The notes under the pieces were generated by a model. The model saw nothing but the letters and a program-made list of their open reading frames with translations, searched no databases and had not been told where the DNA came from. This document shows positions 1,958 through 37,695 of a stretch of 45,336 nucleotides of DNA, one piece after another. Source of the stretch: Phycisphaerales bacterium (GTDB lineage: Bacteria > Planctomycetota > Phycisphaerae > Sedimentisphaerales > UBA12454); assembly GCA_003142595.1 (NCBI GenBank), contig PLMU01000015.1:1-45336 (forward strand). Reading direction: 5' to 3'. The first letter of the stretch is position 1, and each line of letters begins with the position of its first letter. The position numbers and the translations under genes are program-made.

Positions 1958-2029
1958 TTTATCTCTTTCAACCCCGAAACTGAAAAATATTGGTTTTGAA
2001 CTTCATTTTCTTGCTCTATTTTTATATGG

Positions 2030-5934: not shown

Positions 5935-6099
5935 ATGTTAGGAATACAGGACAAATGGGTTTCGCTTGCTTACATTCTTAGTATCGTAAGTACTTTATTG
6001 TGCGTTATTTATGGATTTATCAATTGGAACAAAGGCGATGATGAGGTTAGTCAGGTGGACAAGCACTGGGCCAAGGAAGAGGACAAACTTGATAAGTAG
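5935..6099 (+). CDS. Symporter small accessory protein, 54 aa
   Basis: ATG 5935 follows GGGAGATAGACTT, a good ribosome site, and opens a 54-codon frame starting MLGIQDKWVSLAYILSIV and ending in a charged tail KEEDKLDK. It has one membrane helix (about residues 9-28, WVSLAYILSIVSTLLCVIYG) followed by FINWNKGDDE. This matches the small single-span proteins encoded just ahead of sodium:solute symporters, with the typical LG-Q-D-W start and YG-INW motif. The symporter gene starts 70 bases downstream on the same strand. A role in assembly or stability of the transporter is inferred from this constant pairing. Confidence 0.82.
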   Translation: MLGIQDKWVSLAYILSIVSTLLCVIYGFINWNKGDDEVSQVDKHWAKEEDKLDK

Positions 6100-9786: not shown

Positions 9787-11334
9787 ATGGCTACAAACCG
9801 AGTCAAAGATAAGATATTCCTTTCAGGTAATGAAGCCTTGGCACATGGTGCCTGGGAGGTCGGCCTGAAAGTTGCCTGTGCCTATCCAGGTACTCCTTCT
9901 ACTGAAATCCTTGAAACTTTAGCCAAATTCCCGGAAGTTGATGTTCAGTGGTCCGTCAATGAAAAAGTCGCTTTTGAGGTGGCTCTCGGGGCAGCGATAG
10001 GAGGCGTCCGAAGCCTCTTTGCCTGCAAGCACGTTGGTTTAAATGTTGCCATGGATCCTCTGATGACTGCGGCTTACACAGGTATCGGCGCCGGTTTTGT
10101 CGTCGTGGTTTGCGATGACCCCGGCATGTTCTCATCACAAAATGAGCAGGACACCCGCTGGGTAAGCATTTATGCCAAGCTGCCGATGTTTGAGCCGTCA
10201 AGTCCTGCCGAAGCCCGTCAAATGGTCAAACAGGCTTTTAAAATTAGTGAACAATTTGACACTCCTGTGCTCCTGAGAATGACTACTCGCATTTCCCACA
10301 CAAAAGAAGATATTACTATCGACACGCGGTCCGTACCCGTCCAGCCCCCATTTCAACTAAATATCCAAAAATATGTTATGGTGCCTGGCAATGCCTATCA
10401 AAGGCATATCCTTCTCGAAAAAAAACTTCAAAAATTAAAAACGTACTCTGAAAATTCTAAATTCAACTGCATTGAAATTGCTGATAAAAAAATCGGTTTC
10501 ATAACTTCAAGTATTACCTACAACTATCTGAAAGAGCAATTTCCCCAGGCATCTTATTTGAAGCTTGGTTTTGTCTATCCCTTCTGCGATGACAAAATCA
10601 GAAAGTTTGCTAAATCCGTCAAAAAAATCTATGTTGTTGAGGAGCTGGACCCATTTCTCGAAGAGCATGTCAAAACCCTCGGCATCAAATGCTTCGCAAA
10701 AGACCCTTCATTTAGAATTGGCGAGCTCCGTCCGGAGTTTATGTCCGATATCGTTAACGGCAAAGCTAAAGTCGAAAAGAAACCCGATATCCGCAAGCCG
10801 CGAATGTGCTCTAATTGCCCACACTTGTTCACTTTCGCCACCCTGAAAAAGCTTGACGCCATTGTAGCCGGAGACATTGGCTGTTATACACTTGCATCTT
10901 TGCCCCCGATTTCTGCCCTGCATTCTTGTGTTTGTATGGGAGCTGGTGTAACCTTTAACGAGGGATTGCGAAAGGCTTTTCCGAGCGGCAAAATCGTTGG
11001 CGTCGTCGGCGATTCGACATTTATTCATTCGGGTATCACAGGTCTCATTAATGCTGTTTACAACAAGGCAAAGGGCATTATCTTCATCCTTGATAATTCG
11101 ACCACAGCAATGACCGGAGGCCAGCACCATCCGGCAACAGGTTTTACAATTCGAAATAAACCGACCAAAAAGCTTGTTCTCGAAGACCTGTGCCGCAGTT
11201 GCGGCGCTGATTATGTCGCTGTCGTAGACCCAAAAGACCGCAAAAAATTTGAAGAAATCGTAAAACAGCGGATAAATGCGGATGCTTTATCAGTTATTAT
11301 CGCGAGGCATCCTTGTCCGTTAATTAATAGGTAA
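9787..11334 (+). CDS. iorA: Indolepyruvate:ferredoxin oxidoreductase alpha subunit, lacking the C-terminal ferredoxin domain
   Basis: IorA oxidatively decarboxylates aryl pyruvates (indole-, phenyl-, hydroxyphenylpyruvate) to aryl acetyl-CoA and reduces ferredoxin. The N-terminal pyrimidine-binding domain has SGNEALAHGAWEVG and the AYPGTPSTE motif (about residues 13-40). The C-terminal TPP domain has GDIGCYT, HSCVCMGAG and the GDST...N signature near residue 407. MCSNCPH occurs near residue 340. The usual subunit is about 100 aa longer and ends with two 4Fe-4S clusters. This protein stops at ARHPCPL, where that ferredoxin domain would start, so electrons must leave through another carrier. 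It is followed after 7 bases by iorB. Confidence 0.92.
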   Translation: MATNRVKDKIFLSGNEALAHGAWEVGLKVACAYPGTPSTEILETLAKFPEVDVQWSVNEKVAFEVALGAAIGGVRSLFACKHVGLNVAMDPLMTAAYTGIGAGFVVVVCDDPGMFSSQNEQDTRWVSIYAKLPMFEPSSPAEARQMVKQAFKISEQFDTPVLLRMTTRISHTKEDITIDTRSVPVQPPFQLNIQKYVMVPGNAYQRHILLEKKLQKLKTYSENSKFNCIEIADKKIGFITSSITYNYLKEQFPQASYLKLGFVYPFCDDKIRKFAKSVKKIYVVEELDPFLEEHVKTLGIKCFAKDPSFRIGELRPEFMSDIVNGKAKVEKKPDIRKPRMCSNCPHLFTFATLKKLDAIVAGDIGCYTLASLPPISALHSCVCMGAGVTFNEGLRKAFPSGKIVGVVGDSTFIHSGITGLINAVYNKAKGIIFILDNSTTAMTGGQHHPATGFTIRNKPTKKLVLEDLCRSCGADYVAVVDPKDRKKFEEIVKQRINADALSVIIARHPCPLINR

Positions 11335-11341
11335 TTTCTCA

Positions 11342-11827
11342 ATGGACAATAAAACCTGTAACATCTTATTCTGTGGTATCGGCGGCCAGGGCGTTCTCAA
11401 AGCCTCTGAAATCTGCGGTTGGGCCGCTATTTTTGACGGCTACCACGTCAAAAAATCCGAAGTCCACGGTATGTCGCAGCGTGGCGGCTCGGTAGAATCA
11501 CATCTTCGATTCGGAAACAAAGTCTTTTCCCCCTTAATAACAGCCGGTTGTGTTGACTACCTCGTTTCTTTTCATCAGGACGAAAACACAAGAATGAAAA
11601 AACTTCTTAAGTCCGACGGTGTTGACTTGGTTGAGTATCTTGGCAAAGCCCAGGCACAAATTCAGGATCCAAAACATCTTAACACCTTTCTGATTGGCGT
11701 CCTTTCCACATTCCTGTCTATTAAAGAAGCAAGCTGGATTAAGGCTATCGAAAAGGTCTTTCCAGGAAAGTTATTGTCTCAGAATAAAGAAGTCTTTTTC
11801 AAAGGCAGAAGGATGATAAAAATATGA
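11342..11827 (+). CDS. iorB: Indolepyruvate:ferredoxin oxidoreductase beta subunit
   Basis: This 161-aa protein is the gamma-domain subunit of the 2-oxoacid oxidoreductase. It has the N-terminal GIGGQGVLKASEI nucleotide-type loop (residues 11-23) and the signature SEVHGMSQRGGSVESHLRFG near residues 38-57. It pairs with IorA to form the active enzyme. It is shorter than the typical 190-aa IorB, with the C-terminal helices reduced. Its TGA overlaps the ATG of the following ligase gene, so the two are translationally coupled. Confidence 0.92.
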   Translation: MDNKTCNILFCGIGGQGVLKASEICGWAAIFDGYHVKKSEVHGMSQRGGSVESHLRFGNKVFSPLITAGCVDYLVSFHQDENTRMKKLLKSDGVDLVEYLGKAQAQIQDPKHLNTFLIGVLSTFLSIKEASWIKAIEKVFPGKLLSQNKEVFFKGRRMIKI

Positions 11828-13125
11828 TATGGAATGAAAAATACGAGTGTATGCCGGTGAATGAACTTAAACAGGTTCAGTCAGAGAGACTTAAGAAACT
11901 TGCTGCCTACATCTACACAAATTGCAGCGTTTACAAGGACAAATTTGATAAGGCAGGGATTAAGCCCGACGCTATCCGTTCAATCGACGACATAAAGAAG
12001 CTGCCCTTCACAACCAAAATAGATATGCGGGACAACTATCCTTACGGCTTATTCTGCAAAGACCAAAAAGAGGTAATAGAAATCCACGTCTCCAGCGGGA
12101 CAACCGGCAATCCAACATTGGTCGGATACACACGCGACGATATTAAATTATGGTCTGAAGTTATGGCTCGCTGCATGGCTTGCGCCGGAGCAGAACCCGG
12201 CGATACTATTCAGAATGCTTACGGTTACGGACTGTTTACCGGCGGCCTGGGAGCGCATTACGGCGGACTGGAAATGGGTCTAAGGGTTATTCCGATGTCG
12301 TCAGGACAGACGCAGAGACAACTTAAAATTATGCAGGACTTCAAGCCTAAAATCATTTCCTGTACGCCAAGTTATGCGTTGTATATGGCCGAAGAAGCCC
12401 GCGAGATGGGAATCGACCCGAAAAAGGGAAGCTGGAAAATCGGCGTCTTCGGAGCAGAACCGTGGAGCGAAAAAATGAGAAACGAAATCGAGGCGACCTG
12501 GAATATGCTTGCTACGGATATTTACGGCCTTTCGGAAATAATCGGACCCGGCGTTGCGCAGGAATGTCCCAATAAGAACGGCCTGCATATTTTCAGCGAT
12601 GTTTTTTATCCTGAGATTATCGATCCTGACAGCGGAGAAGCGGTTGCCGAAGGTCAGGATGGCGAATTAGTTATTACAACGCTCACCAAGCAGGCTATTC
12701 CACTGATAAGATACAGAACAAGAGATATTGTCAGTATCAATTATGAAAAATGCAAATGCGGCAGAACAAGTCCTCGAATCAGCAAAATCAAGGGCAGAAC
12801 AGACGATATGATTGTCGTCCGCGGCATAAACGTATTTCCATCGCAGATTGAACACGTTCTGCTCGGCATCAAGGGCACAGAGCCGCATTACCAGATTATC
12901 GTCGATAGGCAGCAGCATCAGCTCGATGAGGTTGAAGTGCTTGTCGAGGTCAACAGTAAGATGTTCAGCGATGAAGTTAAGCAGCTTGAAGAACTCAAGC
13001 GGAAAATCAAAAAGGAAATCAGCGCAGTATTATCCATCAGCGCCAAGGTTACGCTTGTTGAACCCAAGACTATCGAAAGAAGTATGGGCAAGGCGAAAAG
13101 AGTTATTGATAAACGTCAAATGTAA
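11824..13125 (+). CDS. paaK: Phenylacetate-CoA ligase family protein, copy 1
   Basis: The 433-aa adenylate-forming enzyme has the PaaK layout: an N-terminal helical part with KKLPFTTKIDMRDNYPYGLF, the AMP-binding loop VSSGTTGNPT (about residues 88-97), the A5-type motif DIYGLSE near 236-242, and RYRTRDI with CKCGRTSPR before the hinge and a small C-terminal domain. It interconverts aryl acetates and their CoA esters using ATP/AMP. Next to iorAB, the reaction may run from CoA ester to free acid, which is an inference. ATGA overlap with iorB and an ACT gene 11 bases downstream place it mid-operon. Confidence 0.93.
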   Translation: MIWNEKYECMPVNELKQVQSERLKKLAAYIYTNCSVYKDKFDKAGIKPDAIRSIDDIKKLPFTTKIDMRDNYPYGLFCKDQKEVIEIHVSSGTTGNPTLVGYTRDDIKLWSEVMARCMACAGAEPGDTIQNAYGYGLFTGGLGAHYGGLEMGLRVIPMSSGQTQRQLKIMQDFKPKIISCTPSYALYMAEEAREMGIDPKKGSWKIGVFGAEPWSEKMRNEIEATWNMLATDIYGLSEIIGPGVAQECPNKNGLHIFSDVFYPEIIDPDSGEAVAEGQDGELVITTLTKQAIPLIRYRTRDIVSINYEKCKCGRTSPRISKIKGRTDDMIVVRGINVFPSQIEHVLLGIKGTEPHYQIIVDRQQHQLDEVEVLVEVNSKMFSDEVKQLEELKRKIKKEISAVLSISAKVTLVEPKTIERSMGKAKRVIDKRQM

Positions 13126-13136
13126 GGATGCACAAA

Positions 13137-13568
13137 ATGAAGATAAAACAGATTTCTATATTTCTGGAAAACCGCAAAGGCAGACTTTACGATGTATGCT
13201 CGCTGCTGGGGAAAAACGATATCAATATCCGCGCTCTTAATGTCGCAGAGACGGAATCCTTCGGCATTCTTAGAATTGTGGTAAACAAACCTGACGTTGC
13301 GATCAAAGTTTTTAAGGATGCCGATATCGTGGCCAAGATTACGGATGTCATTGCCATCGAGGTTGACGACAGGCCCGGCGGTCTTGCAGATATTCTTAAA
13401 GTGCTGGCCGATGAGGATGTCAATATCGAATATATGTATGGCTTTGTCGAAAAATCGTCCGACAGGGCTCTTATGGTTTTTAGATTTGACGATGTCGATA
13501 AGGCTGCGGCAATTTTGAAAAAGCACAATATAAGAATTGTTACAGAGCAGAGCGTCAGGGAACTTTAA
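13137..13568 (+). CDS. Tandem ACT-domain protein, copy 1
   Basis: The protein consists of two ACT domains. The first opens with IKQISIFLENRKGRLYDVC and the second near residue 70 with AIEVDDRPGGLADILKVLADEDVNIEYMYGF, the typical ligand-binding beta-alpha-beta with a Gly in the turn. ACT pairs bind amino acids or aromatic metabolites and regulate enzymes. Position between two ligase genes suggests control of the ligase or oxidoreductase by the aromatic substrate. ATG 13137 is preferred over ATG 13128 because AAGGA at 13124-13128 has proper spacing and the paralogue at 14894 starts in the same place. Confidence 0.88.
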   Translation: MKIKQISIFLENRKGRLYDVCSLLGKNDINIRALNVAETESFGILRIVVNKPDVAIKVFKDADIVAKITDVIAIEVDDRPGGLADILKVLADEDVNIEYMYGFVEKSSDRALMVFRFDDVDKAAAILKKHNIRIVTEQSVREL

Positions 13569-13571
13569 TCA

Positions 13572-14882
13572 ATGGATATTCGCTACTGGAATAAAGATGT
13601 AGAAACTGCCGATGTGCAGAAGATTCGACATCTACAATTACAAAGACTTAAAAGTATAATCGCATCCGCCCTGAAAACGCCATTTTACTCCCGGCGTCTT
13701 CCTTCGGTAGGCATAAACTCGCCCGATGACATAAAAACACTCGATGATTTGCGGAGGATTCCCTTTACTATGAAGGACGACCTTCGACAGAATTATCCCA
13801 AAGGTCTTCTGTCTGTCGATACTTCCGAAGTGGTCAGGATTCATACATCGAGCGGCACTACTGGAATTCCGACTGTAATATATCTTTCCGCAAAAGACCT
13901 CGATGCCGCGACTGATATTATGGCAAGAAGCATAACTGCTACAGGAGCAGGCAGAACCGATATTTTGCAGAATATGATGAGTTATGGTCTTTTCACCGGC
14001 GGATTGTGTATGCATTATGGGGCAGAGCGGGTCGGTTTGATGGTTATTCCAGCCGCAGGCGGAAATACAAAAAGACAGGTCTCTTTGATGAATGATTTTC
14101 GCACGACTGTTCTTCATATAACGCCAAGTTATCTGCTGCACATTCATTCGAAGCTGGCTGAATACGGTGTCAAGGTCGGCGATTTGGCGCTGAAGAAAGC
14201 ATTTATCGGAGCCGAGCCGCATTCTGAAGGCACGCGAAGAAAAATCGAGGAGCTTTTCAAAATCGACGCGTATAATTCCTACGGCCTTAGCGAAATGAAC
14301 GGGCCGGGCGTTGCTTTCGAATGCGTTTATAAAAATGACCTTCATTTATGGGAAGACGCCTACATAGTCGAAATAATAAATCCTAAAACCGGTCAGCTTG
14401 TTCCTGACGGGCAGGAAGGCGAAGTGGTTTTGACAAATCTTATCCGTCATGCGATGCCGCTTATGCGATACAGGACAAGAGACCTTGCGTTTTTACATAT
14501 CGAGCCTTGCAAATGCGGCAGAACGCACAGAAGGCTTTCGCGAATTCTCGGCCGGTCGGACGATATGCTAATAATCAACGGTGTCAATATGTTCCCGTCT
14601 CAGATTGAGGAAGTTGTAATGAAAATTCCTGAGGTGGGAAATAATTATCAGATATGCGTTGAAAAAGACGGCGCCCTTGACAGGCTTATTGTGAAAGTCG
14701 AACTGTATTCGAAGATGTTTTTGGGCGAAGCGAAACAGATTGATAATTTAAAATCTAAAATCGGCGAAGAATTAAAAGCCTCGATAACAATAAAGCCGGC
14801 GATAGAATTGCACGAGCCCGGTTCTTTGCCTGCGTTTGAAGGCAAAGCCGTTCGCGTGGTAGATACCCGGCCCAAACTGTAA
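13572..14882 (+). CDS. paaK: Phenylacetate-CoA ligase family protein, copy 2
   Basis: The second PaaK paralogue has 436 aa. It starts WNKDVETADVQKIRHLQLQRL, keeps IHTSSGTTGIPTVIY as the AMP-binding loop, YGLSEMNGPG as the adenylation motif, and RYRTRDLAFLHIEPCKCGRTHRR near residue 300. It is clearly diverged from copy 1 over most of its length while keeping every motif, so it is an old duplication with probable specialisation, for example for phenyl- versus indole- or hydroxyphenyl-acetate. It begins three bases after the first ACT gene and is followed after 11 bases by a second ACT gene. Confidence 0.93.
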   Translation: MDIRYWNKDVETADVQKIRHLQLQRLKSIIASALKTPFYSRRLPSVGINSPDDIKTLDDLRRIPFTMKDDLRQNYPKGLLSVDTSEVVRIHTSSGTTGIPTVIYLSAKDLDAATDIMARSITATGAGRTDILQNMMSYGLFTGGLCMHYGAERVGLMVIPAAGGNTKRQVSLMNDFRTTVLHITPSYLLHIHSKLAEYGVKVGDLALKKAFIGAEPHSEGTRRKIEELFKIDAYNSYGLSEMNGPGVAFECVYKNDLHLWEDAYIVEIINPKTGQLVPDGQEGEVVLTNLIRHAMPLMRYRTRDLAFLHIEPCKCGRTHRRLSRILGRSDDMLIINGVNMFPSQIEEVVMKIPEVGNNYQICVEKDGALDRLIVKVELYSKMFLGEAKQIDNLKSKIGEELKASITIKPAIELHEPGSLPAFEGKAVRVVDTRPKL

Positions 14883-14893
14883 AGGAGTACATT

Positions 14894-15328
14894 ATGGCAA
14901 AACAACTTCATATATTTGTCGAAAACAAACCAGGCAGACTGAGAGCTATCACCGATAACCTTCAGAAAGTCGGCATTAATATCCGGGCCTTTGCCATCCA
15001 GGACAGGGGCGATTATGGACTGATGAAACTTATCGTAAGTAACCCCGAGCAGGCGCATTTGTCGCTGGCCGATATGGGTTGTGCTTGTGCGTTGAAAGAT
15101 GTTCTGGCGGTTTCGATTCCCGATCGGCCGGGTAATCTTCACCGGCTTCTAAGTGTACTTGTTGACGGCGGTATTAATATAGTTGACGCACATGGTTTTG
15201 TTTTGCAGCCCAATCAACAGGGTATTTGCATTCTTGAGATTGAAAATTTAGCTCAGACAAATGCCGAACAGGTGGTCAGAAAAGCTGGTTTTGATGTTCT
15301 CGGCAACGATCAGCTTAATAACCTTTAA
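14894..15328 (+). CDS. Tandem ACT-domain protein, copy 2
   Basis: This 144-aa protein has two ACT domains starting QLHIFVENKPGRLRAITDNL and, near residue 70, VLAVSIPDRPGNLHRLLSVL. It has the same organisation as the copy at 13137 and pairs with the second ligase as that one does with the first. A good ribosome site (AAAGGAGTACATT) precedes the ATG. It is the last gene of the iorAB-paaK-ACT-paaK-ACT operon. No clear terminator follows. Confidence 0.88.
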   Translation: MAKQLHIFVENKPGRLRAITDNLQKVGINIRAFAIQDRGDYGLMKLIVSNPEQAHLSLADMGCACALKDVLAVSIPDRPGNLHRLLSVLVDGGINIVDAHGFVLQPNQQGICILEIENLAQTNAEQVVRKAGFDVLGNDQLNNL

Positions 15329-16331: not shown

Positions 16332-17087
16332 TTAAGACCCCACGCCAAGTAATCTTAGTATTCCATCAAGTATCGTGTAAGGATTGGGCGGGCAGCCGGG
16401 AATATATAAATCTACAGGCACAGAATTATCCGCACCGTTTGTTTGCTCCGGATGGCCGGAATATATTCCACCTGAAATCGCACAAGCCCCTGCCGCAATC
16501 ACAATTTTTGGCGATGGCACCGCATCATAAGTCTTCTTCAATGCGAGTTTCATATTCGTTGTTACAGGACCTGTTATAAAAAGCCCGTCAGCATGTCTTG
16601 GTGAAGCGACAAATTGTACGCCGAACCTTCCTAAATCGTAGGCAAGAGTCGATAATACGTTAGTATCCGCCTCGCAGGCATTACATCCGCCGGCACTGAC
16701 CTGTCTTAATTTTAAAGACCTGCCAAAGATTTTCAGCATATCGGCTTTTAAACTTTCTGCCGATTTAAATTCCTGACTTTTCAAAAGCAAATCTTCTCTT
16801 TTTCCTGCGGCTAAACTATATTCACGGCTAAATATAATAGTTTTATTCTGACAAACCTGCTCGCATTTGCCGCAAAAAATGCACCTGCCCATATCCAGTT
16901 CAATCTTATTGCCATTGGCAATAATCGCATCGGTCGGACAAATGGATATGCACTTTTTACAATCGTTGCATTTAGAATCAGAAATAACCGGTCTTCCCTT
17001 AAACCTTTCAGGAAGAGAAGGTTTCTTTTTGGGAAACGGATATGTTCTATATCCCTGCTTAATTCGAGCGACAAATGCTTTTAACAT
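16332..17087 (-). CDS. hyfI: Ehr complex small subunit fused to a two-cluster ferredoxin (HyfH/HyfI-like)
   Basis: This 251-aa fusion has an N-terminal ferredoxin with two 4Fe-4S sites (Cys 40, 43, 46, 50 and 69, 72, 75, 79) joined to a NuoB/HycG-type small subunit. The latter holds the proximal cluster ligands GGCNAC (135, 138), GAC (202) and PGC (232). In most hyf/hyc operons these are separate genes. It would carry electrons from a soluble donor toward the large subunit. ATG 17087 is chosen over 17105 because GAGG is well spaced and MLKAFVARIKQGYRTYPFP is the family's usual start. It is the last gene of the operon. Confidence 0.88.
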   Translation of the reverse strand: MLKAFVARIKQGYRTYPFPKKKPSLPERFKGRPVISDSKCNDCKKCISICPTDAIIANGNKIELDMGRCIFCGKCEQVCQNKTIIFSREYSLAAGKREDLLLKSQEFKSAESLKADMLKIFGRSLKLRQVSAGGCNACEADTNVLSTLAYDLGRFGVQFVASPRHADGLFITGPVTTNMKLALKKTYDAVPSPKIVIAAGACAISGGIYSGHPEQTNGADNSVPVDLYIPGCPPNPYTILDGILRLLGVGS

Positions 17088-17094
17088 AAAAACC

Positions 17095-18555
17095 TCATAA
17101 ATCATGCCCGCAATATGAAAGATTAAAACTTTTATTGCAAAGCGGAAAATCGGAAATCTGCTGGTTACGCAAAGCTATCGCGATAGCCGGCCAGTTATGA
17201 AAAGACGGATCAACTATTTTATAATGTAAAAGCTGACCATTATTTCCGGTAATTGCTGTATGACAGATTTCACCTCTCCAGCCTTCCACAAGACTAACAG
17301 CAATTTTATTCGCAGCCAAAGCGGAAGGATTTGATAAAGTTTGTCCATCAGGCAGATTCTCAAGTTCATTTTCGATAAAGTTTACGCTTTTTTGAATCTC
17401 AAGCCAACGGATATAAGCCCTTGCGAATACATCGCCGGTGTCCCAGGTAGAAATTGGAATTTGACTAAATTGATAAGCACCGCTTGCGAAATTAAATCTT
17501 GCGTCGCGTTCAAGCCCGCAGGCTTTCGCAGGAACACCAACCACCCCCAAATCAATACAATCTTTTTGAGTCAATACCCCGGTATCGTCAAAACGGTCTA
17601 AAACCGAAGGCGTTTCCCATAAAAGATTAACGGCATTTGAAACATCTTTGAAAGCGGCTTTTATTCTTTGCTTTAAATCGGAAATATTTGAATTATCAAT
17701 GTCATAATTTACTCCGCCGGGACTTACAAGACCTCTGCCGAAACGATTTCCGCAAAGAACCGCCGTCATATTTAAAAAGTCTCCACGAATTCTGCCGCAA
17801 AAAGAAGAGGTCGGCAAATAACCAACATCTCCGGCCAGAGCACCTAAATCTCCCGTATGATTCGCCAGTCTTTCAAGCTCAAGAGCAATCGCCCTTATAA
17901 TGTTAGCGCGGGCAGGAACATAGCAATTTGAAAGGCTTTCCATAACCTGAGAATATGCCAAACTGTGCCCTATGGTAGTATCGCCAGCTAAAGTCTCCAT
18001 ATAATGAATCAATCTTTTTTGCTCGCCGCTGCGGATTGCTTTTTCAATACCTCTATGCTGATAACCCAAAGAAATTTCAAGATGAAATACATTTTCGCCA
18101 TTACATTGAAACCTGAAATGTCCCGACTCAATAATTCCCGCGTGAACAGGGCCTACAGCTACTTCGTGGATTTCAGAACCGGCAACTTTGAAAAAGTCCG
18201 TAATGCCGATTAAAGATGAATCAGGAAATCTTACAGGTTTAAGCCAGGGATGACCCTGGGGTATAATAGAAAACTGCTCAGCTATTTCTCTTTCAAACAA
18301 ATGTGCCTGCGGGCAAGCCGGCGTCAAAGAAGGATAACTTTTTGATACCTTACTCGATAAAAGATAAAGGCTGCCATTGGTATCATCGGCCAAAACGCAA
18401 ACAAGCTTATCTGCCGGCATCGCAAAAAGTGTTGCTATCCGTAAACCGCTGTTTACCTGTTCTATTATAGTCTGTCTGAATTTTAAAATATCCAGGCAAG
18501 GCACATTTTTAAAATCATTCACTCCGCAATTATAAATTTTCAGCATATTCTCCAT
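17095..18555 (-). CDS. hyfG: NiFe-hydrogenase-like large subunit without nickel ligands (Ehr)
   Basis: The 486-aa protein has an N-terminal NuoC-like domain (residues 1-120, ending HPWLKPVRFP) and a NuoD/HycE-like domain. Where catalytic hydrogenases have RxCGxC, this has LAGDTTIGHSLAY (189-201). Where they have DPCxxC near the C-terminus, it has DPSFHNWPAIAIAL and ends FNLSYCGHDL. All four Ni-binding cysteines are therefore missing, so it cannot form a NiFe site. This is the hallmark of Ehr complexes, whose electron acceptor is not established. It starts at ATG 18555 overlapping the hyfF stop (TGATG), with GGAGG upstream, instead of a longer frame from 18579. Confidence 0.88.
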   Translation of the reverse strand: MENMLKIYNCGVNDFKNVPCLDILKFRQTIIEQVNSGLRIATLFAMPADKLVCVLADDTNGSLYLLSSKVSKSYPSLTPACPQAHLFEREIAEQFSIIPQGHPWLKPVRFPDSSLIGITDFFKVAGSEIHEVAVGPVHAGIIESGHFRFQCNGENVFHLEISLGYQHRGIEKAIRSGEQKRLIHYMETLAGDTTIGHSLAYSQVMESLSNCYVPARANIIRAIALELERLANHTGDLGALAGDVGYLPTSSFCGRIRGDFLNMTAVLCGNRFGRGLVSPGGVNYDIDNSNISDLKQRIKAAFKDVSNAVNLLWETPSVLDRFDDTGVLTQKDCIDLGVVGVPAKACGLERDARFNFASGAYQFSQIPISTWDTGDVFARAYIRWLEIQKSVNFIENELENLPDGQTLSNPSALAANKIAVSLVEGWRGEICHTAITGNNGQLLHYKIVDPSFHNWPAIAIALRNQQISDFPLCNKSFNLSYCGHDL

Positions 18556-20030
18556 CAGTTGCCTCCAACCAGCATGCAAATGTCGTGCAGAAAATTTCTA
18601 AACGTAGAAGGGATGAATAATCCTAATACTAAAATCAGCAATATCATAATAGCAGGAGGGACTACGGATAAAAATCTTTGTTTTAAGGCAACCTTCTCAA
18701 TCCCCTGCTCCGGACTGCCCTGTGTCATCCTGATACAAATTGTCGCGAAACCAATGAAAACTATAACAAGCAAAACAAGATAAGCACCAGAAACGAAAAA
18801 CCTGCCCTGCTCGATACCGGCCTTGAGAATCGTAAATTCACTGATAAACGTTCCGAAAGGAGGAAAACCTGTGATTGATAATATGCCTGCCAGCCACAAA
18901 AAAGCTGAAATAGGAATCACTTTAAACATTCCCTGGACATCATTCGTCCTTTTGGTTTTATAGACCGCTAAAATATTTCCCGCGACTAAAAATAACGCCG
19001 CTTTTGTCAGAGAATGATTTACAAGATGAAGCATAGAACCGAAAACAGCCGCTTTTCCAAGTCCCAAACCAATCGCGACAATTCCCATATGCTCGACACT
19101 CGAATAGGCAAGCATTCTTTTATAATCAGCCTGTCTTATTATATAAACGGCCGCAACCAGCATCGAAACCAGTCCTAACGCGATGAGCAAATCACCGGCA
19201 AAATCACCAAGGCCCGCAGCCGTACAAACCTGAAATGTCCTGAAAATCCCCAAGAAAGCACAATTGAGCATAGCGCCGGAAAGAAGCGAAGATATAACGG
19301 AAGGCGCCTCGCTGTGAGCGTCCGGCAACCAGGTATGCATAGGAGCAAGTCCCATTTTTGTTCCATAGCCGACAAGAATGAATATAAATGCCGCTTTGAG
19401 CCATTTGACATTCAATACGTTTGCGTATTTTACAAGTTCGCCCGCGAGCAGCGACACAGGTTTTTCTCCGCCGGTTGACGCAGCCACCGCAAGAAAGAAA
19501 TTACCCAAAAGTGCGATAGCTATACCAACCGAACAAATCATCAGGTATTTCCACGTCGCCTCAAGTGAGCGATGATGCCGATGAAAATAAATCAACGGAG
19601 CGCTGGTCAGCGTGGTCAGTTCAATCGCGACCCAAATCAATCCAAAATGCTGACTTAACGCAAGAAACGTCATCGACGCCAGAAGAAAAAGCATACAACA
19701 AATAAAAATCGCTTCAGGAACATTCGAAAATATAATATCTTCCTGAAAATCTTTTATTTGCTGATGTTTTTCATTCTTAAGATAACTAATCGCGTAAAAA
19801 CCGGCTCCAAGAAAAAGGCCGCTGGTAATGCTTAAAATAAGCTGCCCGATTCGGTCAAGTCCGAGCCAGTTATTGAATAAAGCCGCAGGCGGGAAAAACC
19901 AGAATGAACAAGTTAAAATAAAATGTAATACAGCCGCAGTGCCCAGCAGGAAATATCTCAGGCTGGCATTTCTGCTAACCAAAGATAAAACACCCGCCAA
20001 AAACGGTATAAATATCAATGCCAATAACAC
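18555..20030 (-). CDS. hyfF: Proton-pumping antiporter-like subunit (HyfF-like)
   Basis: This 491-aa polytopic membrane protein is of the NuoL/M/N-MrpD family. It contains the conserved pump core MGLAPMHTWLPDAHSEAPS with the helix 7-8 lysine region, and ALTKAALFLVAGNILAVY and ITGFPPFGTFISEF further on. It is one of two antiporter-type modules of the complex, likely translocating H+ or Na+. It starts with GTG 20030 behind AGGAG, one base after the hyfE stop. The long C-terminal lateral helix of NuoL is absent, as expected for HyfF. Confidence 0.88.
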   Translation of the reverse strand: MLLALIFIPFLAGVLSLVSRNASLRYFLLGTAAVLHFILTCSFWFFPPAALFNNWLGLDRIGQLILSITSGLFLGAGFYAISYLKNEKHQQIKDFQEDIIFSNVPEAIFICCMLFLLASMTFLALSQHFGLIWVAIELTTLTSAPLIYFHRHHRSLEATWKYLMICSVGIAIALLGNFFLAVAASTGGEKPVSLLAGELVKYANVLNVKWLKAAFIFILVGYGTKMGLAPMHTWLPDAHSEAPSVISSLLSGAMLNCAFLGIFRTFQVCTAAGLGDFAGDLLIALGLVSMLVAAVYIIRQADYKRMLAYSSVEHMGIVAIGLGLGKAAVFGSMLHLVNHSLTKAALFLVAGNILAVYKTKRTNDVQGMFKVIPISAFLWLAGILSITGFPPFGTFISEFTILKAGIEQGRFFVSGAYLVLLVIVFIGFATICIRMTQGSPEQGIEKVALKQRFLSVVPPAIMILLILVLGLFIPSTFRNFLHDICMLVGGN

Positions 20031-20031
20031 G

Positions 20032-20664
20032 CTAACTCCTTAATGTTGAGAGCTGGTCGGTCTCAATATGGTCAAATTCTCTGGAAATATGGAAAATCGT
20101 TATGCCCATAACAAAAACAGCAACAAAAGCATCCAGCAGAACCGCAAGCTCGACAAGCAGCGGCTGTTTTTGCGGCAATATAACTCCGAACATATAAATT
20201 CCATTTTCAAAAATCAAATAACCGATTACCTGAGTCAAAGCCATCTTGCGGGTTATAATCAGATACAATCCGACAAATGCAGTAAATATTGACACCGGCA
20301 AAACTGCCGAGTTTGCCGGGGTAATGGTAAGTGGTAAATTTTTGCTAATCCACCATGAAAGAACTATGGCGCCAAGGCCAATCAGCAGCGACATGCCATA
20401 TCCTACGTAAGGTTTTTTCTCGCGATGTATATTTAACTGACTTAAAGTCCTCAACAGCATCGAAGGGAACAAAATCGCCTTTACGCTAATTGCTATTATC
20501 GAAAAAATCACAAGTTGTATATCGAATTGCCCCCCTGCCACAGGCAAAACCCCTAAAATAATCCCCTGGAAGGCAATAACCTTTATGCAGGTGCTTAGTC
20601 TGCTGGTCGAGAGAATAATCAAATTCACCAAAGTCAGAAAAATCATCATAAATTCAATTAACAT
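20032..20664 (-). CDS. hyfE: Membrane subunit HyfE-like
   Basis: This 210-aa hydrophobic protein has about seven helices. It starts MLIEFMMIFLTLVNLIILS and ends with a charged tail HISREFDHIETD. FENGIYMFG and QPLLVELAVLLDAFVAVFV are the conserved NuoK-like part of HyfE, with its membrane glutamates. The open frame extends upstream to 20889, but ATG 20664 fits the family start and lies two bases after the hyfC stop. It forms part of the membrane ion channel linking the antiporter modules. Confidence 0.85.
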   Translation of the reverse strand: MLIEFMMIFLTLVNLIILSTSRLSTCIKVIAFQGIILGVLPVAGGQFDIQLVIFSIIAISVKAILFPSMLLRTLSQLNIHREKKPYVGYGMSLLIGLGAIVLSWWISKNLPLTITPANSAVLPVSIFTAFVGLYLIITRKMALTQVIGYLIFENGIYMFGVILPQKQPLLVELAVLLDAFVAVFVMGITIFHISREFDHIETDQLSTLRS

Positions 20665-20666
20665 TT

Positions 20667-21587
20667 TTATTTCCTCAAAACAAAAACCATTGCCAGTACC
20701 GCGAAAACCGTCGCAATAAAAATAAAGTGAGGGACAAACAATAATTTCAGCCTCGCTATGCACGACTCTATAATTCCGACTACAACAGAAACGCAAAGCA
20801 CCGCTAAAACGCAAATACCAAGGTTGGGCCAAAAGCCAAAACCGATATCCGGTATCAGCACTCCCGCAAAAAGTGCCGTGAATACCCAAAGTTTTAACGC
20901 AGAAGCGAATACTATAAACGCAAAATCCGGTCCGCTGCTGTCTAATACCATAACCTCATGTATCATTGTCAATTCAAGATGAGTATTGGGGTCGTCAACC
21001 GGAATTCTCGCGTTTTCCGTAAGCAGAACGATTATAAGCGTCGCAGCGACAAATAAAATTATAGAAATATGTGAAAGCCAAAATTTGCTTGTAATAGAAA
21101 CAAGAATTTCTGATAAAGATAATTTCCCTGTTCCGCAGGCAATCGCAGCCAAAGCCAGAAACAACGCAGGTTCAGTTAAAGCGGAAAATTGAGCCTCCCT
21201 GCTTGCCCCCATTCCCTCGAAACTTGAACCTGTATCCAAAGCGGCGATTATCGTAAAAAATCTTATCAGGGCAAATAAATAAATGACCAGGAAAATGTCT
21301 CCATCGAAAAAGATAACCGCTTTGCTGTGTCCCAAAGGAATAAATAATGTAATAAGGAGAATGGCCGATAAGTTAATAATGGGACCTGCCCTGAAAATCC
21401 AGCCGGTAGTTTTGCTGTAAACCACGCCTTTATGGACCAGCTTCCAAAGGTCAAAATATGTTTGAAACAGAGGCTGGCCTTTTCTGCCGGCAAAAAATGC
21501 CTTCGTTCTGTTAATGATTCCGAATAACAGTGGCGACAGAATCAAGGCCAGTATTGGCTGAATTATTCTAATAGATATATTGTCCAT
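20667..21587 (-). CDS. hyfC: NuoH-like membrane anchor (HyfC/HycD-like)
   Basis: The 306-aa membrane protein is a NuoH/HycD homologue. GRKGQPLFQTYFDLWKLVHK near residue 35, FEGMGASREAQFSALTEPAL near 125 and VDDPNTHLELTMIHEVMVLD near 195-215 are the conserved quinone-site or connecting segments with their acidic residues. It couples the peripheral arm (HyfG/HyfI) to the antiporter subunits. It abuts hyfB with no gap. Confidence 0.9.
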   Translation of the reverse strand: MDNISIRIIQPILALILSPLLFGIINRTKAFFAGRKGQPLFQTYFDLWKLVHKGVVYSKTTGWIFRAGPIINLSAILLITLFIPLGHSKAVIFFDGDIFLVIYLFALIRFFTIIAALDTGSSFEGMGASREAQFSALTEPALFLALAAIACGTGKLSLSEILVSITSKFWLSHISIILFVAATLIIVLLTENARIPVDDPNTHLELTMIHEVMVLDSSGPDFAFIVFASALKLWVFTALFAGVLIPDIGFGFWPNLGICVLAVLCVSVVVGIIESCIARLKLLFVPHFIFIATVFAVLAMVFVLRK

Positions 21588-23588
21588 TTATCTTAGTTTC
21601 CAAATAATTAAAGCAATTAAAGTCAGAGCGATATACAAAATATAAAGCTGGATATTTCCGCCCTGTAACCATCTGAGCCTGCCCAGGAGCAGATAAATCA
21701 CTCTAAAAATCGGATTAAATAAATAATCCCGACTCACTTCCGGCGTGGAGCTTTCGAATTGTCCTTCAACCGGAAACAAATCCTTAATAGGCTCAGTTAT
21801 TTTCCTGGTGCGCAAAATCATTTTGAAGGTATCAACAAGAGGCTGAGCAAAAGACGACGCTGTATATTGCATTCTCGCGTCAGGTTTGGCGTAACCGCAA
21901 TCCCATGTTGGAGCGATACTTACTTTTTCAGCAGAAAGCATTTTCTTTCTGATAAACAAAAGAATCGCAATTGCCGCGAAAAGACAAAAAGCCGCGAAAG
22001 ATACTTTTATTAAAATATTGCTTAAAGGCAAAATCTGTGAACTCACAACATCCGGCCCAATTCCCGCAATTTGTGAAATGCACTGCTTTAGCCAATTAAT
22101 CGTAATTGATGAAAACAGACCTATGAATACACATAATGCCGCCAGGATAATCATAGGCACCAGCATTATCATGGATGATTCCTGAACATTCATCGCGTGT
22201 TTGCTCCTCGGCTCACCAAGAAATACTATTCCATATACTTTCGTAAAACACGCAAGAGCAAGTCCGCCGATTAGAGCCAGCGAACCGATTATAATAATTG
22301 ATACTGCCGCAAGGTCCAATTGCTTTGTAATCAGTCCCTTGAATGAACCTGTATAAATCAAAAATTCGCTGATAAAACCATTCAAAGGCGGTATTCCGCA
22401 AATCGCAACAGCTCCGATTAAAAATGTTACGGAAGTTACGAACATATTTTTTCCAAGCCCGCCCAGTTCATCGATTTCTCTTGTGCCAGCGGCACTGACC
22501 ACTGAACCGGCTCCTAAAAATAAAAGCCCTTTGAACAATGCGTGATTTAAAATATGTAAAATTGCCCCGCCGAAACCTAATATGGCCAGGATTTGGCTGC
22601 CTGAGTTTATGCCGACAACGCCCAATCCCAGCCCCATTGTAATAATCCCGATATTTTCAACGCTGTGATATGCAAGGAGTCTTTTTATATCGTGCTGCGC
22701 CAGTGCGAATAAAACTCCGATTACTCCCGATACGGCTCCGACGATTATCAGCAGCCAGCCCCACCATAACGGCGGATTAGGTAAAAATGTCAGCACACGA
22801 ATAATTCCATAAATTCCGGTCTTTATCATTACGCCGCTCATAAGAGCCGATACATGACTTGGCGCAGCCGGATGCGCTTCAGGCAGCCAGATATGAAATG
22901 GAACTAAACCTGCTTTTGTCCCAAAACCTACTAAACTTAAAATAAAAATTATCGATGCCATCGAAGACGGCAGCAGTTTAATTGCTGCAAATTTATCAAA
23001 ATCCAGTGAATTACTTTCTCTGCCAAGTAATATAAACATCACAAGCAAAAACGCGGTCCCTATATGTGTTGCTATCAAATATACTATACCGGCCTGCCTG
23101 ACGTGTTTATGTTCATCTTCGAATGTAACCAGGAAAAAGGAGGCAATTGACATTATTTCCCAGCAAATCAAAAAAAGCATTCCATTTGCCGAGACTACGA
23201 CCATTGCCATTGAAGATATAAGAACATTGAAGAAGAAAATTGCTTTTGCCAATGACTTGTTTTTGTATTCAAGAAGATACCTGCTGCCGTAAATTGCTGT
23301 TATTATTGAAAGAATAAAAATACATAAGAGAAAAAATGCTGATATAGCGTCGATTTCAACAAAAAAAGCTCCAAAGGGTATCGACCATGCTATATATAAA
23401 GATTCTTTCCCGCCAGAAAGCAAAACTTTAATCGCGGGAATTAGTCCCAGGATCGAACCTGAAACTGCGCCAAGTGTACCAACAAGTATAGATAATTTCT
23501 GTTTTCTCCAAAACAGCAGTGACAGTATGCCCCCGAAAAAAATTAAAAAGACACCCACCAGAAATATTTTTATCGAATAATAAAACAT
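21588..23588 (-). CDS. hyfB: Proton-pumping antiporter-like subunit (HyfB-like)
   Basis: This 666-aa polytopic protein has the antiporter core GTKAGLVPFHIWLPEAHPAAPS near residue 220, LLAYHSVENIGIITMGLG, and HILNHALFKGLLFLGAG. A C-terminal extension contains WDCGYAKPDARMQYTASSFAQP, the HyfB/HycC signature. It is the larger of the two pumps. It starts 21 bases after the HTH-EIIA regulator gene, so the regulator is in the same transcript. Confidence 0.9.
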   Translation of the reverse strand: MFYYSIKIFLVGVFLIFFGGILSLLFWRKQKLSILVGTLGAVSGSILGLIPAIKVLLSGGKESLYIAWSIPFGAFFVEIDAISAFFLLCIFILSIITAIYGSRYLLEYKNKSLAKAIFFFNVLISSMAMVVVSANGMLFLICWEIMSIASFFLVTFEDEHKHVRQAGIVYLIATHIGTAFLLVMFILLGRESNSLDFDKFAAIKLLPSSMASIIFILSLVGFGTKAGLVPFHIWLPEAHPAAPSHVSALMSGVMIKTGIYGIIRVLTFLPNPPLWWGWLLIIVGAVSGVIGVLFALAQHDIKRLLAYHSVENIGIITMGLGLGVVGINSGSQILAILGFGGAILHILNHALFKGLLFLGAGSVVSAAGTREIDELGGLGKNMFVTSVTFLIGAVAICGIPPLNGFISEFLIYTGSFKGLITKQLDLAAVSIIIIGSLALIGGLALACFTKVYGIVFLGEPRSKHAMNVQESSMIMLVPMIILAALCVFIGLFSSITINWLKQCISQIAGIGPDVVSSQILPLSNILIKVSFAAFCLFAAIAILLFIRKKMLSAEKVSIAPTWDCGYAKPDARMQYTASSFAQPLVDTFKMILRTRKITEPIKDLFPVEGQFESSTPEVSRDYLFNPIFRVIYLLLGRLRWLQGGNIQLYILYIALTLIALIIWKLR

Positions 23589-23609
23589 AGATTATCTCAA
23601 GGAAAAAGA

Positions 23610-24299
23610 TTATGGCGTGACGGTTTTTTCAACCTCCGCATCAATCCGTTTTAAATGTTCCAGGATTTCTTCCCTGTTTGCCTGGTTTTTAAGGGCGAGT
23701 TTAAAATTATTATCCCTTAAAGCATATCCTAATTTAGACAATATATTAAGATGAGCCCGCACAGTCGGGCTTACGATTGTAAACAAACAATACACTGGCT
23801 GCGAATCGATAGCCCCGAAATCCACTGGATTTTCGAGGAAACATAAATTTACCATCAGGCCCGGTACATGCAAAACGATTGGGTTGCGAACGTGAGGAAT
23901 CGCGATACCCTCTCCGATACCGGTCGACGCCAATGCCTCTCTTGCCAGAAGAACGTTACAAAGAAATTGTCTGTCAACCTCTTGCGGAAGGTTCATAAGT
24001 TCTACAACACTGCGAATCGCCGATGGCTTGTCTTTCCCGCCGACTCTGTAGTGAATTCCGCCAAGTTTTAGAGCCTCATATAAGCTTTCGGCCGGATTCT
24101 TTTCACTTTCAGGCTCATTAAACAAATCAACTGATACATTGATTTTGTTGGCGGTAGCCCATTCGAGCAATTCAGCACGATTAAAACGGTATTGATTGTT
24201 TACCCTGTAGCCGGGCAGTGAATTATGCTGAACCCATCTGTAAACCGTTTTCTCGCTTACACTTAACAATTCTGCTACGTCTTTTACCCTAAGCTGCAT
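23610..24299 (-). CDS. Excisionase-type HTH fused to a PTS EIIA (PtsN-like) domain
   Basis: Residues 1-50 are a MerR/excisionase-type DNA-binding domain (LRVKDVAELLSVSEKTVYRW, then a YRFNRAELLEWA wing). Residues 75-225 are a PTS EIIA type-2 domain with the phosphorylatable histidine in IAIPH (His136). EIIA-Ntr domains report nitrogen/carbon status through phosphorylation. Fused to DNA-binding they act as regulators, although this type is often uncharacterised. Being the first gene of the Ehr operon, it probably controls that operon or feeds phosphorylation state into it. The 215-base leader upstream holds no obvious gene. Confidence 0.88.
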   Translation of the reverse strand: MQLRVKDVAELLSVSEKTVYRWVQHNSLPGYRVNNQYRFNRAELLEWATANKINVSVDLFNEPESEKNPAESLYEALKLGGIHYRVGGKDKPSAIRSVVELMNLPQEVDRQFLCNVLLAREALASTGIGEGIAIPHVRNPIVLHVPGLMVNLCFLENPVDFGAIDSQPVYCLFTIVSPTVRAHLNILSKLGYALRDNNFKLALKNQANREEILEHLKRIDAEVEKTVTP

Positions 24300-24514: not shown

Positions 24515-24868
24515 TTAAGCAACCTTTCGATAGCTCTTTAAAAGCCCACCAATAAAATCTTTCCGGACAATATTTCTGGCTGCCACTTTTGATAGCACGG
24601 TGCAACCCTGCCATCTGTTGGGCTTAACAATCGCAACCACTTGCTCCATCAAATCCCTGCCCATTGCCAAAGCTGCTTCAACCAACGTTCGTCTATCATC
24701 ATCTGTAAAGACGATACGTTTCTTGATATTAGACTTGAGAATCTTGTTCTCCGCACGAAGATATTCATTCTGAAGTGTCAATTCTCGGCACAATAGCCGA
24801 GCAATCGTTGCTATGATCGGTACATTTAACCATTTATTAGTAGTTGTTTGATTCGCTGTACTTTTCAT
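24515..24868 (-). pseudogene. Transposase N-terminal fragment (integrase-core type)
   Basis: The 117-aa frame starts MKSTANQTTTNKWLNVPI and contains LRAENKILKSNIKKRIVFTDDDRRTLVE and ALAMGRDLMEQVVAIVKP. This is the typical start of rve-type transposases that go on with a helix-turn-helix and a DDE core. After IVKPNRW the sequence leaves the family and ends, so the catalytic part is lost. A related 5' fragment lies at 40727-40847 with the same upstream sequence. It is a relic, not an active element. Confidence 0.65.
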
Positions 24869-33001: not shown

Positions 33002-34867
33002 TTGATTTACTTGAAGCATATTTTGAATAATTACCTGCCTAAGCTTCTTTTGTTAAGCCTGTTAGCCTCAACAGTTTTCGCCTACTCCGGCGGAACAGGC
33101 CAGCCGAATGACCCATACCAGATTGCCGATACCAATGACTTGCTGGCTCTGGCAGCCGCACCCGCAGATTACAACAAATGCTTTATCCTGACGGCGGATA
33201 TTAATATGACTGGGCAGGTCTTTACAACGGCAATCCTTGCCGCCGATACCAACTCAGACAATGGTTTTCAGGGGCCTGCCTTTACAGGAACGTTTGATGG
33301 CAATGGCCATAAAATTACTCATTTTACCATCAATAGCAGTAGTAACGATTTTCTTGGCCTATTTGGTTGTGTTGAATCCGGTGTAGTTAAAAATCTCGGC
33401 CTTGAGAACTTTGCTGTCACCGGTTACATAAATGTCGGCGGGCTGGTAGGATACAACAATCATAGCAACATCAGCAATTGCTATTCGACAGGGGCTGTTA
33501 CCGGTGGAGAGAATTCAAATTCTCTCGGCGGGCTGGTAGGATACAGCGATATCGGATTCAGCGGTGGCGTTAGCAATATCACCAATTGCCATTCAACAGG
33601 CGCTATTACCGGCGGAAATTCCTCAGGCGGATTGGTGGGAAGCAACAGATATACAAATATCAGCGATTGCTATTCGACAAGCGTTGTTACAGGTGGGTAT
33701 GACTCATATTGTCTCAGCGGGCTGGTAGGATATAGTTATTATGGTTCTATCAGCAATTGCTATTCAACAGGCAATGTTACCGCTGGAGATATTTCATATT
33801 GCCTTGGTGGGCTGGTAGGAGCTTGTCCTTATACTGTTATTAGCAATTGCCATTCGACCGGTAATATCGAAGGTGGGAACACCCTCGGCGGGCTGGTAGG
33901 ATCTAACTCCGGCGGTATCATTAATTGCTATTCTACAGGTCATGTTATAGGCTGGTATTATTGCGGAGGACTGGTGGGAGATAACGATGATGGCGATATT
34001 GACAATTCTTATTCAATAGGCGATATTACTGGCGGAGATGATTCATACTATATAGGTGGGCTGGTGGGATATAGCCATTATAATAGCTCTATTAGATGTT
34101 GCTTTTCGACAGGTGCTGTTGTTGGCGGAAAGAGTTCTGAAGAGTTCGGCGGACTGGTAGGATATAATAGGGGTAATATCCGCAATTGCTTTTCAACAGG
34201 CAATGTTATCTGCGGAGATTATTCGCATTGGCTTGGCGGACTAGTGGGATGGAATCAGGATAGTGATGGGATGGGTGGTAGTATTATTAATTGCTATTCG
34301 ATTGGTGATGTCAACGGCGGATATTATTATGGTGGGCTGGCAGGAGGAAACGCAGGTGATGGTACTATCAGTAGTTGCTATTTTATTGTTACCAGCGGGC
34401 CTGATAACGGAAACGGGACACCGCTGACAAATGCGCAGATGAAACAACAAAATAATTTCGTTGGATGGGATTTTGTCGGCGAAACCGCAAATGGCACAGA
34501 CGATATATGGGAAATAAATATTGGGACGGATTATCCGAAATTAGCATGGCAGCAGCAGCAATCTTTAGCCGGTGATTTTGATGGTTCTGGCGATGTTGAT
34601 TTTTATGATTTTTCTGTTTTTGCAAACCAGTGGCTGCTTGAAAAATTATCTTTCGATACTAACAACGACGGCATTGTGAACTTTTTAGACTTTGCTGCCT
34701 TTGCAAATAACTGGCATGGCGATATAAATCAATTATCCCAGTTTGCTTCTCAATGGTTGCGGCGAAGTGCTACTAGTGCTGATATTGCTCCCGCTCCAAA
34801 CGGTGATGGCATTGTGAATTTTCTCGACTTTGCAGTCTTTGCCGAAAACTGGCTCAAACAAAATTAA
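33002..34867 (+). CDS. Secreted GLUG-repeat surface protein with dockerin-like C-terminus
   Basis: The 621-aa protein begins at TTG 33002, supported by a strong AGGAGG eight bases upstream, with a signal peptide (LLLLSLLASTVFAYSGG). Residues of about 85-470 are a right-handed repeat region built on units like GGLVGYN...ISNCYSTGxVTGG (GLUG motif), about a dozen copies. Two or three dockerin-type calcium repeats follow: DFDGSGDVDFYDFSVFANQW, then DTNNDGIVNFLDFAAFANNW and GDGIVNFLDFAVFAENW. The DFxxFAxxWL form is characteristic of Phycisphaerae secreted proteins. It is probably adhesive or attached to a cell-surface scaffold; no enzyme domain is seen. Confidence 0.88.
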   Translation: MIYLKHILNNYLPKLLLLSLLASTVFAYSGGTGQPNDPYQIADTNDLLALAAAPADYNKCFILTADINMTGQVFTTAILAADTNSDNGFQGPAFTGTFDGNGHKITHFTINSSSNDFLGLFGCVESGVVKNLGLENFAVTGYINVGGLVGYNNHSNISNCYSTGAVTGGENSNSLGGLVGYSDIGFSGGVSNITNCHSTGAITGGNSSGGLVGSNRYTNISDCYSTSVVTGGYDSYCLSGLVGYSYYGSISNCYSTGNVTAGDISYCLGGLVGACPYTVISNCHSTGNIEGGNTLGGLVGSNSGGIINCYSTGHVIGWYYCGGLVGDNDDGDIDNSYSIGDITGGDDSYYIGGLVGYSHYNSSIRCCFSTGAVVGGKSSEEFGGLVGYNRGNIRNCFSTGNVICGDYSHWLGGLVGWNQDSDGMGGSIINCYSIGDVNGGYYYGGLAGGNAGDGTISSCYFIVTSGPDNGNGTPLTNAQMKQQNNFVGWDFVGETANGTDDIWEINIGTDYPKLAWQQQQSLAGDFDGSGDVDFYDFSVFANQWLLEKLSFDTNNDGIVNFLDFAAFANNWHGDINQLSQFASQWLRRSATSADIAPAPNGDGIVNFLDFAVFAENWLKQN

Positions 34868-37673: not shown

Positions 37674-37695
37674 CGTTAAGGAAAGGAAAAATCTT

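Follow-up and report, generated by a model that had tools for sequence, protein, structure and literature searches.

The energy-converting hydrogenase-related (Ehr) complexes are relatives of the group 4 hydrogenases that are without the conserved nickel and iron ligands (PMC6349859; here as below, papers are cited for individual passages). The loss of nickel is already known: the absent site is in print (PMC6349859, PMC10284858, PMC12342949, PMC13194489), and papers of 2020, 2023 and 2025 call the role of the complex unknown or never investigated (PMC7894505, PMC10284858, PMC12342949). Here we analyse a stretch of 45,336 nucleotides from a Phycisphaerales bacterium of the phylum Planctomycetota, called the window, which is the entire contig PLMU01000015.1 of a genome of 2.28 Mb, 98.5% complete. 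Its minus strand carries an Ehr operon that opens with the gene of a helix-turn-helix (HTH) regulator fused to an EIIA domain of the phosphotransferase system (PTS), and this conserved HTH-EIIA partner is the new, testable part of the analysis. The Ehr complex of Geobacter sulfurreducens, GSU0739-0745, is reportedly the subject of Coppi 2005.

The G. sulfurreducens complex has the same Hyf-like subunit set as the window and no NiFe centre, and some Geobacter-type Ehr loci have two HyfB-like subunits. The closest systems in solved fold and in sequence, with a subunit-by-subunit match, are the formate hydrogenlyase (FHL) and hydrogenase 4 (Hyd-4) of Escherichia coli, of group 4a [NiFe]. The window complex differs from them by replacement of the four NiFe cysteines and of the canopy aspartate (D529 to N486); its operon contains neither HycB/HyfA nor a gene for the HycI protease, and its large subunit, HyfG, ends at the ligand motif. 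The membrane-bound sulfane reductase (MBS) of Pyrococcus furiosus is, like the window complex, nickel-free and related to the membrane-bound hydrogenase (MBH), but its three-ligand proximal cluster, its two remaining NiFe cysteines out of four and its lack of an equivalent of MbhL E21 are not features of the window complex (PMC7684303). The fold of complex I, in NuoD and NuoB, is common to both, and HyfG retains the relay H241/E394/R435; however, the quinone-binding histidine and tyrosine of NuoD are absent from HyfG, the operon has no NADH module, and the small subunit has CxxC where that of complex I has adjacent cysteines. Finally, the regulator has the same EIIA_2 domain with phospho-accepting histidine as PtsN (EIIA-Ntr), but carries an N-terminal HTH_17 fusion and is encoded with a membrane complex.

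The operon and its identity

The assignment of the operon to Ehr is secure, and it is an ordinary member by every feature tested. The best solved relative of HyfG by sequence is HycE of E. coli formate hydrogenlyase (E=1.2e-47). The predicted fold, with a mean predicted local distance difference test (pLDDT) of 87.1, superposes on HycE with a VIA Z of 40.7 and a root mean square deviation of 2.6 over 468 residues, and Foldseek gives E=1.2e-28 for the same protein; the 49 kDa chains of complex I rank after HycE among the solved proteins compared. A tree was built from 60 of the 118 HyfG rows collected. In it, a core of 47 Ehr rows that includes the window is separated from all seven nickel-type rows with an approximate likelihood ratio support (SH-aLRT) of 100. 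This core contains Geobacteraceae, Verrucomicrobiota, Planctomycetota, Myxococcota, Acidobacteriota, Spirochaetota and others. A Geomonas locus (L152) lies within the same clade, and HyfG of the window shares 51-54% identity with the large subunits encoded at the Geobacter and Geomonas loci. When four more nickel-free rows are joined to the core, the split between these 51 rows and the seven nickel rows has an SH-aLRT of 98 with the motif columns and of 90, not starred, without them. The initial annotation had called the complex Ehr and had named a position inside a nickel-containing clade as evidence to the contrary: sequence, tree and fold agree with the name, and HyfG falls outside the nickel rows.

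The coordinates first given for the operon hold: seven collinear open reading frames (ORFs) run on the minus strand from 24299 to 16332, with names taken from Pfam and NCBIfam matches.

23610-24299, minus strand: HTH-EIIA regulator, first gene of the operon, with HTH_17 (excisionase/MerR-like) and PtsN-like PTS_EIIA_2 domains; His136 and a second histidine, His183
21588-23588, minus strand: HyfB-like antiporter-type membrane subunit, EhrA-like
20667-21587, minus strand: HyfC/NuoH-like membrane anchor subunit, EhrB-like
20032-20664, minus strand: HyfE-like membrane subunit, EhrC-like
18555-20030, minus strand: HyfF-like antiporter-type membrane subunit
17095-18579, minus strand: large subunit EhrL/HyfG (NuoCD-like) with 30 kDa and 49 kDa domains and zero of four nickel ligands
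17980-17982, minus strand: codon of HyfG Asp200, in the first-site motif AGDT (counted from ORF start 18579)
17098-17127, minus strand: codons of HyfG residues 485-494 (FNLSYCGHDL), where the second CxxC has in fact been lost (counted from ORF start 18579)
16332-17105, minus strand: fusion of a 2x[4Fe-4S] ferredoxin domain (HycF/MbhN-like) with a NuoB/HycG/MbhJ-like small subunit, CxxC...C...C

The stop of the regulator gene is 21 nucleotides from HyfB. The likely start of HyfE is the methionine at 20664, since residue 75 is the first to match the family in a listed ORF that extends to 20889; HyfG may start at 18555 instead of 18579. Promoter-like and terminator-like sites across the operon were not above shuffled sequences. 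Upstream of the regulator, a 117-residue ORF at 24515-24868, minus strand, has no Pfam or NCBIfam match.

A separate observation concerns a Verrucomicrobia locus (L155:12275-19904), in which a second Hyf-like operon follows directly on the first and encodes another nickel-free large subunit (ISGDS/NLSYSGNDR).

A pocket without nickel ligands

In the alignment with E. coli HycE, cysteines C241, C244, C531 and C534 correspond to A198, T201, S488 and G491 of HyfG, and none of the four NiFe ligands is left; alignments with HyfG, MbhL and nickel-type relatives give the same zero of four. HyfG thus has neither of the two Ni-Fe-binding CxxC motifs of a group 4a [NiFe] hydrogenase. The first CxxC is replaced by LAGDTTIGHSLAY, as the initial annotation had noticed, but its choice of DPSFHNW for the second site was mistaken: this motif (HyfG 457-463) aligns with SPSFCNW of the nickel-type planctomycete relatives L069, L070 and L074, and with AATYANW in HycE. 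The second site is the C-terminus of HyfG, SFNLSYCGHDL, where the nickel type has ELCYSCTDL. The conclusion of an absent nickel site is upheld, with the second loss moved to the C-terminal NLSYCGHDL (S488/G491).

The new residues are close to invariant in the 105 rows of the Ehr core: D200 is aspartate and G491 glycine in all of them, S488 is kept in 104 and C490 in 102. The position of the HycE canopy aspartate D529, a residue described as strictly conserved (PMC9474812), is N486 in HyfG, and 104 of the 105 rows have asparagine there. On the other hand, HycE E193, H284, E437 and R478 correspond to E151, H241, E394 and R435, each retained in 105 of 105 rows; in HycE they are the proton-donating glutamate (E193), two relay residues (H284 and E437) and the canopy arginine (R478) (PMC9474812). 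As aligned and modelled, the pocket is shown to be rebuilt around the conserved A198-G199-D200-T201, N486, S488, C490 and G491, and, to judge from the residues, a hydrogenase-like proton handling is preserved around a pocket predicted to be no longer able to bind Ni-Fe.

It is hardly credible that HyfG is just a broken hydrogenase or the product of an assembly error. The loss of all four ligands may be the end of a decay, and a 2026 paper treats the Geobacter Ehr as nonfunctional (PMC13194489). Yet the frames are open, the new residues are invariant, and 104 other loci, drawn from many assemblies, have the same ligand replacements; this recurrence refutes chance and assembly error, the latter being a doubt that the initial annotation had raised itself.

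Iron-sulfur clusters and membrane subunits

The cluster cysteines of the fusion protein, described as intact from the start, are complete: eight of eight of the ferredoxin type and four of four in the small subunit, each of the twelve being retained in 86-97 of 99 small-subunit rows. The proximal-cluster ligands, aligned with MbhJ and HycG, are C141-x-x-C144, C208 and C238, with the CxxC spacing of the MBH type. MBS is the solved nickel-free relative with a ferredoxin donor (PMC7684303), and one may ask if the proximal cluster of Ehr could reduce polysulfide by itself, as in MBS. We regard this as very improbable: MBS is characterized by a three-cysteine proximal [4Fe-4S] cluster with a shortened motif, whereas the small subunit of the window has four ligands, and it is because the Ehr cluster keeps these four that the mechanism is disfavoured. 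Ehr also has zero NiFe cysteines and the invariant E151, equivalent to MbhL E21, and it resembles MBS only weakly in sequence (7.5e-15).

The antiporter subunits are 38-39% identical to those of E. coli Hyd-4 and have the motif lysines in common with them. A single operon holds antiporter-like membrane subunits, large and small subunits, and a ferredoxin-type domain. The earlier description spoke of an ion-pumping, ferredoxin-dependent complex; these two activities are suggested by homology.

A regulator that accompanies the complex

The regulator matches PTS_EIIA_2 with 87.7 bits, for a curated cut-off of 27, and HTH_17 is also present. The histidine of its GIAIPH motif, at position 136, aligns with the phospho-accepting histidine of PtsN; it is found in 63 of 65 rows, and the second active-site histidine, His183, in 62 of 65. 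The initial annotation had described an HTH-EIIA protein with an intact His136 in the transcript of the complex, which agrees with the shared operon and this alignment, and had proposed to look for the pair in other genomes. The search was run, and the pairing is widespread and statistically strong.

Of at least 579 relatives (at least 584 stretches) the 80 best were sampled, so that the locus counts describe the nearest relatives. A locus is called paired if a profile search finds an HTH-EIIA gene in the Ehr operon or at most 1.5 kb from it, and unpaired only if the available sequence extends 1 kb or more upstream. Among these 80 contig loci, 44 are paired, 19 unpaired, and 17 truncated. A second set of 26 phylum loci yields 16 paired, 6 unpaired and 4 cut off; it includes L058 and L060, duplicates of L146 and L145 that are excluded from the neighbour, alignment, spacing and operator analyses. 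The paired contig loci span ten named phyla: Verrucomicrobiota (11), Planctomycetota (11), Thermodesulfobacteriota (6), Myxococcota (6), Spirochaetota (2), and one each in Acidobacteriota, Omnitrophota, Lentisphaerota, Zixiibacteriota and Fibrobacterota; three more have no phylum name. Ehr and nickel-type loci at 38% identity (L066-L070 and L074), which stand outside these counts, have no HTH-EIIA.

The arrangement is also regular. In 48 of 59 spacings the regulator comes before HyfB, and in 10 it comes before HyfC, inside the operon; the next Ehr gene overlaps or follows within 60 nucleotides in 46 of 59, ORF starts being approximate. Only 2 of the 60 paired loci have the regulator solely on the opposite strand.

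Co-occurrence in whole genomes was evaluated with cut-offs of E<=1e-50 for HTH-EIIA and E<=1e-98 for Ehr. Of 294 Planctomycetota genomes, 21 have both, 5 the regulator only, 7 Ehr only, and 261 neither (Fisher p=1.1e-21, a value that is too small because the genomes are related). The divergence of HTH-EIIA follows that of the large subunit nearly as closely as the other subunits do: the Mantel correlations with HyfG distances are 0.56 for HTH-EIIA (55 pairs), 0.58 for HyfE, 0.62 for HyfC and 0.64 for the small subunit. Genes for EI and HPr are adjacent in the organism's own genome, and HPr is found in 281 of the 294 genomes. In the literature searched we found no mention of the pairing, though an earlier one may exist, and HTH-EIIA is absent from the passages on Geobacter Ehr, those of PMC7894505 and PMC13194489 among them. 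Both Ehr and HTH-EIIA are nevertheless encoded at the loci of the culturable Geomonas limicola and Geobacter argillaceus.

Possible function

We lean slightly towards the following reading: Ehr would be an oxidoreductase linked to ferredoxin and to ion translocation, with a rebuilt active-site pocket and an acceptor other than H2, transcribed under the control of PTS phosphorylation. The acceptor, the direction and the regulatory action are what we infer here. Electrons would pass from ferredoxin, the probable donor because the fused domain is HycF/MbhN-like, and by way of three [4Fe-4S] clusters would reach the former NiFe cavity, where a small acceptor that diffuses freely would take them up and be protonated via E151. 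This transfer would drive the translocation of H+ or Na+, which is suggested because the antiporter subunits retain the motif lysines of Hyd-4. His136 would be phosphorylated by HPr, reporting the state of phosphoenolpyruvate (PEP) and pyruvate; DNA binding by the HTH domain would change, setting the transcription of the operon. A conserved regulator with a guessable input is a direct route into Ehr, since what it senses tells when the complex is needed, and the residue map names the retained relay residues and the new pocket residues to examine first.

The initial annotation had left the electron acceptor unknown, a view that is supported. ORFs of at least 100 residues flanking 104 Ehr loci were clustered by blastp (single linkage, E<=1e-12, 50% coverage), and no family was common to more than 6 loci, a procedure that divergent partners or those beyond about 10 kb escape. 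A small-molecule acceptor is suggested because the 104 loci have no shared neighbour enzyme. For a complex with a formate dehydrogenase (FDH) encoded elsewhere, in which formate oxidation would be coupled to ion movement, this result argues the other way, although it concerns nearby genes only. Such an FDH-Ehr was proposed from genome content for Margulisbacteria and Saganbacteria (PMC6349859), G. sulfurreducens has higher levels of its Ehr subunits on formate than under conditions with hydrogen (PMC7894505), and the closest solved relative is formate hydrogenlyase. In E. coli, however, HycB together with HycF joins FDH to FHL (PMC9474812), and the operon is without a HycB-like subunit; we consider the proposal quite improbable.

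Quinone is another candidate. Ehr would then be a ferredoxin:quinone oxidoreductase with a non-standard site, Glu151 replacing the complex I histidine as proton donor. The fold is that of NuoD (Z 36.8-38.3 among the complex I rows listed), and E151 adjoins the position of that histidine, but I150 and G199 take the places of the quinone-binding histidine and tyrosine of NuoD, in 105 of 105 rows, so the standard site is absent. The organism's own genome (contigs G000:C7 and G000:C13) holds a nickel-type group 4 hydrogenase (CGIC/CFSC), another NiFe large subunit, and a complex I in which the two quinone residues are intact. A search of that genome for menaquinone genes found no match to MqnA/D, MenD only below the cut-off, and a UbiA-family protein; it is indecisive for the acceptor because the genome's own complex I keeps its quinone residues. 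Overall, quinone seems improbable.

The complex might also run backwards, spending an ion gradient to make reduced ferredoxin. Complexes of the Ehr superfamily are generally reversible, and carbon fixation by Nitrospira depends on reduced ferredoxin. Nitrospira are among the carriers of Ehr (PMC10284858, PMC12342949). However, reduced ferredoxin is not obviously short in this organism, because IorAB and further NiFe hydrogenase loci are encoded, and we give reverse transport a small chance.

The forward, PTS-controlled reading has several facts to contend with, besides the description of Geobacter Ehr as nonfunctional. The 19 contig loci without a regulator, though their upstream sequence is available, include two Elusimicrobiota and three Holophagaceae (two of them Geothrix), and because of them Ehr can work without HTH-EIIA. 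Two of the loci counted as unpaired are doubtful: a fragment of the regulator is encoded 1.7 kb upstream of L059, in the same orientation, and L057 (genome G004) has HTH-EIIA with HyfB on another contig. One genome (G081) has two Ehr copies, L065 paired and L048 unpaired. Conversely, 5 of 26 genomes with a close HTH-EIIA have no Ehr match; in these (G133, G110, G289, G229, G249) no Ehr ORF lies in the stretches examined, of which that of G289 ends at a contig edge. Distant paralogues stand directly before a CLC chloride channel with CBS domain in two genomes (L111:8444-10854, L112:8323-10745). These genomes and paralogues show that the regulator family also exists apart from Ehr. Last, the regions upstream of 54 HTH-EIIA genes revealed no shared operator, four-base dyads and 7-mers being no better than in shuffles, so binding at the regulator's own promoter is unsupported.

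These same facts, that some regulators are without Ehr, that paralogues precede CLC channels and that no operator was found, favour a regulator that sits beside Ehr by operon inheritance and controls other genes, or acts on the complex by protein contact instead of on DNA. PtsN acts on transporters by protein contact. We judge this explanation unlikely, though worth keeping: ten named phyla show the pairing, with the regulator gene ahead of HyfB, ahead of HyfC within the operon, or on the opposite strand. A wider proposal may be tentatively put forward, about which we are on the whole doubtful: Ehr would be a regulated unit in its own right, HTH-EIIA proteins would be a family of PTS-phosphorylation switches dedicated to ion-translocating membrane systems (CLC channels in some phyla, Ehr in ten or more), and the PEP/pyruvate state would gate a nickel-free pump whose rebuilt pocket (D200, S488, C490) would reduce a substrate.

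Other features of the contig

At 9787-15328, plus strand, IorAB precedes two pairs of genes, the first for a PaaK-like ligase and an ACT-domain protein, the second for ligase-like and ACT-like products. The initial annotation had found a link of the ferredoxin-producing IorAB to Ehr attractive, as an inference. This link is unsupported: in ORFs of at least 80 residues from L040-L074 and L120-L199, the IorA, IorB, PaaK and SSF proteins of the window have no homologue near Ehr (phmmer E<=1e-10).

Around an N6-methyltransferase ORF (2764-4875), the GC content drops to 0.31-0.34 over 2001-6000, which resembles a recently acquired restriction-modification piece. A GLUG-repeat protein with a dockerin domain is encoded at 33002-34867, plus strand. 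Two overlapping ankyrin-repeat ORFs in different frames, 36315-37673 and 37636-39627, plus strand, may be parts of a single giant protein that a frameshift has divided.

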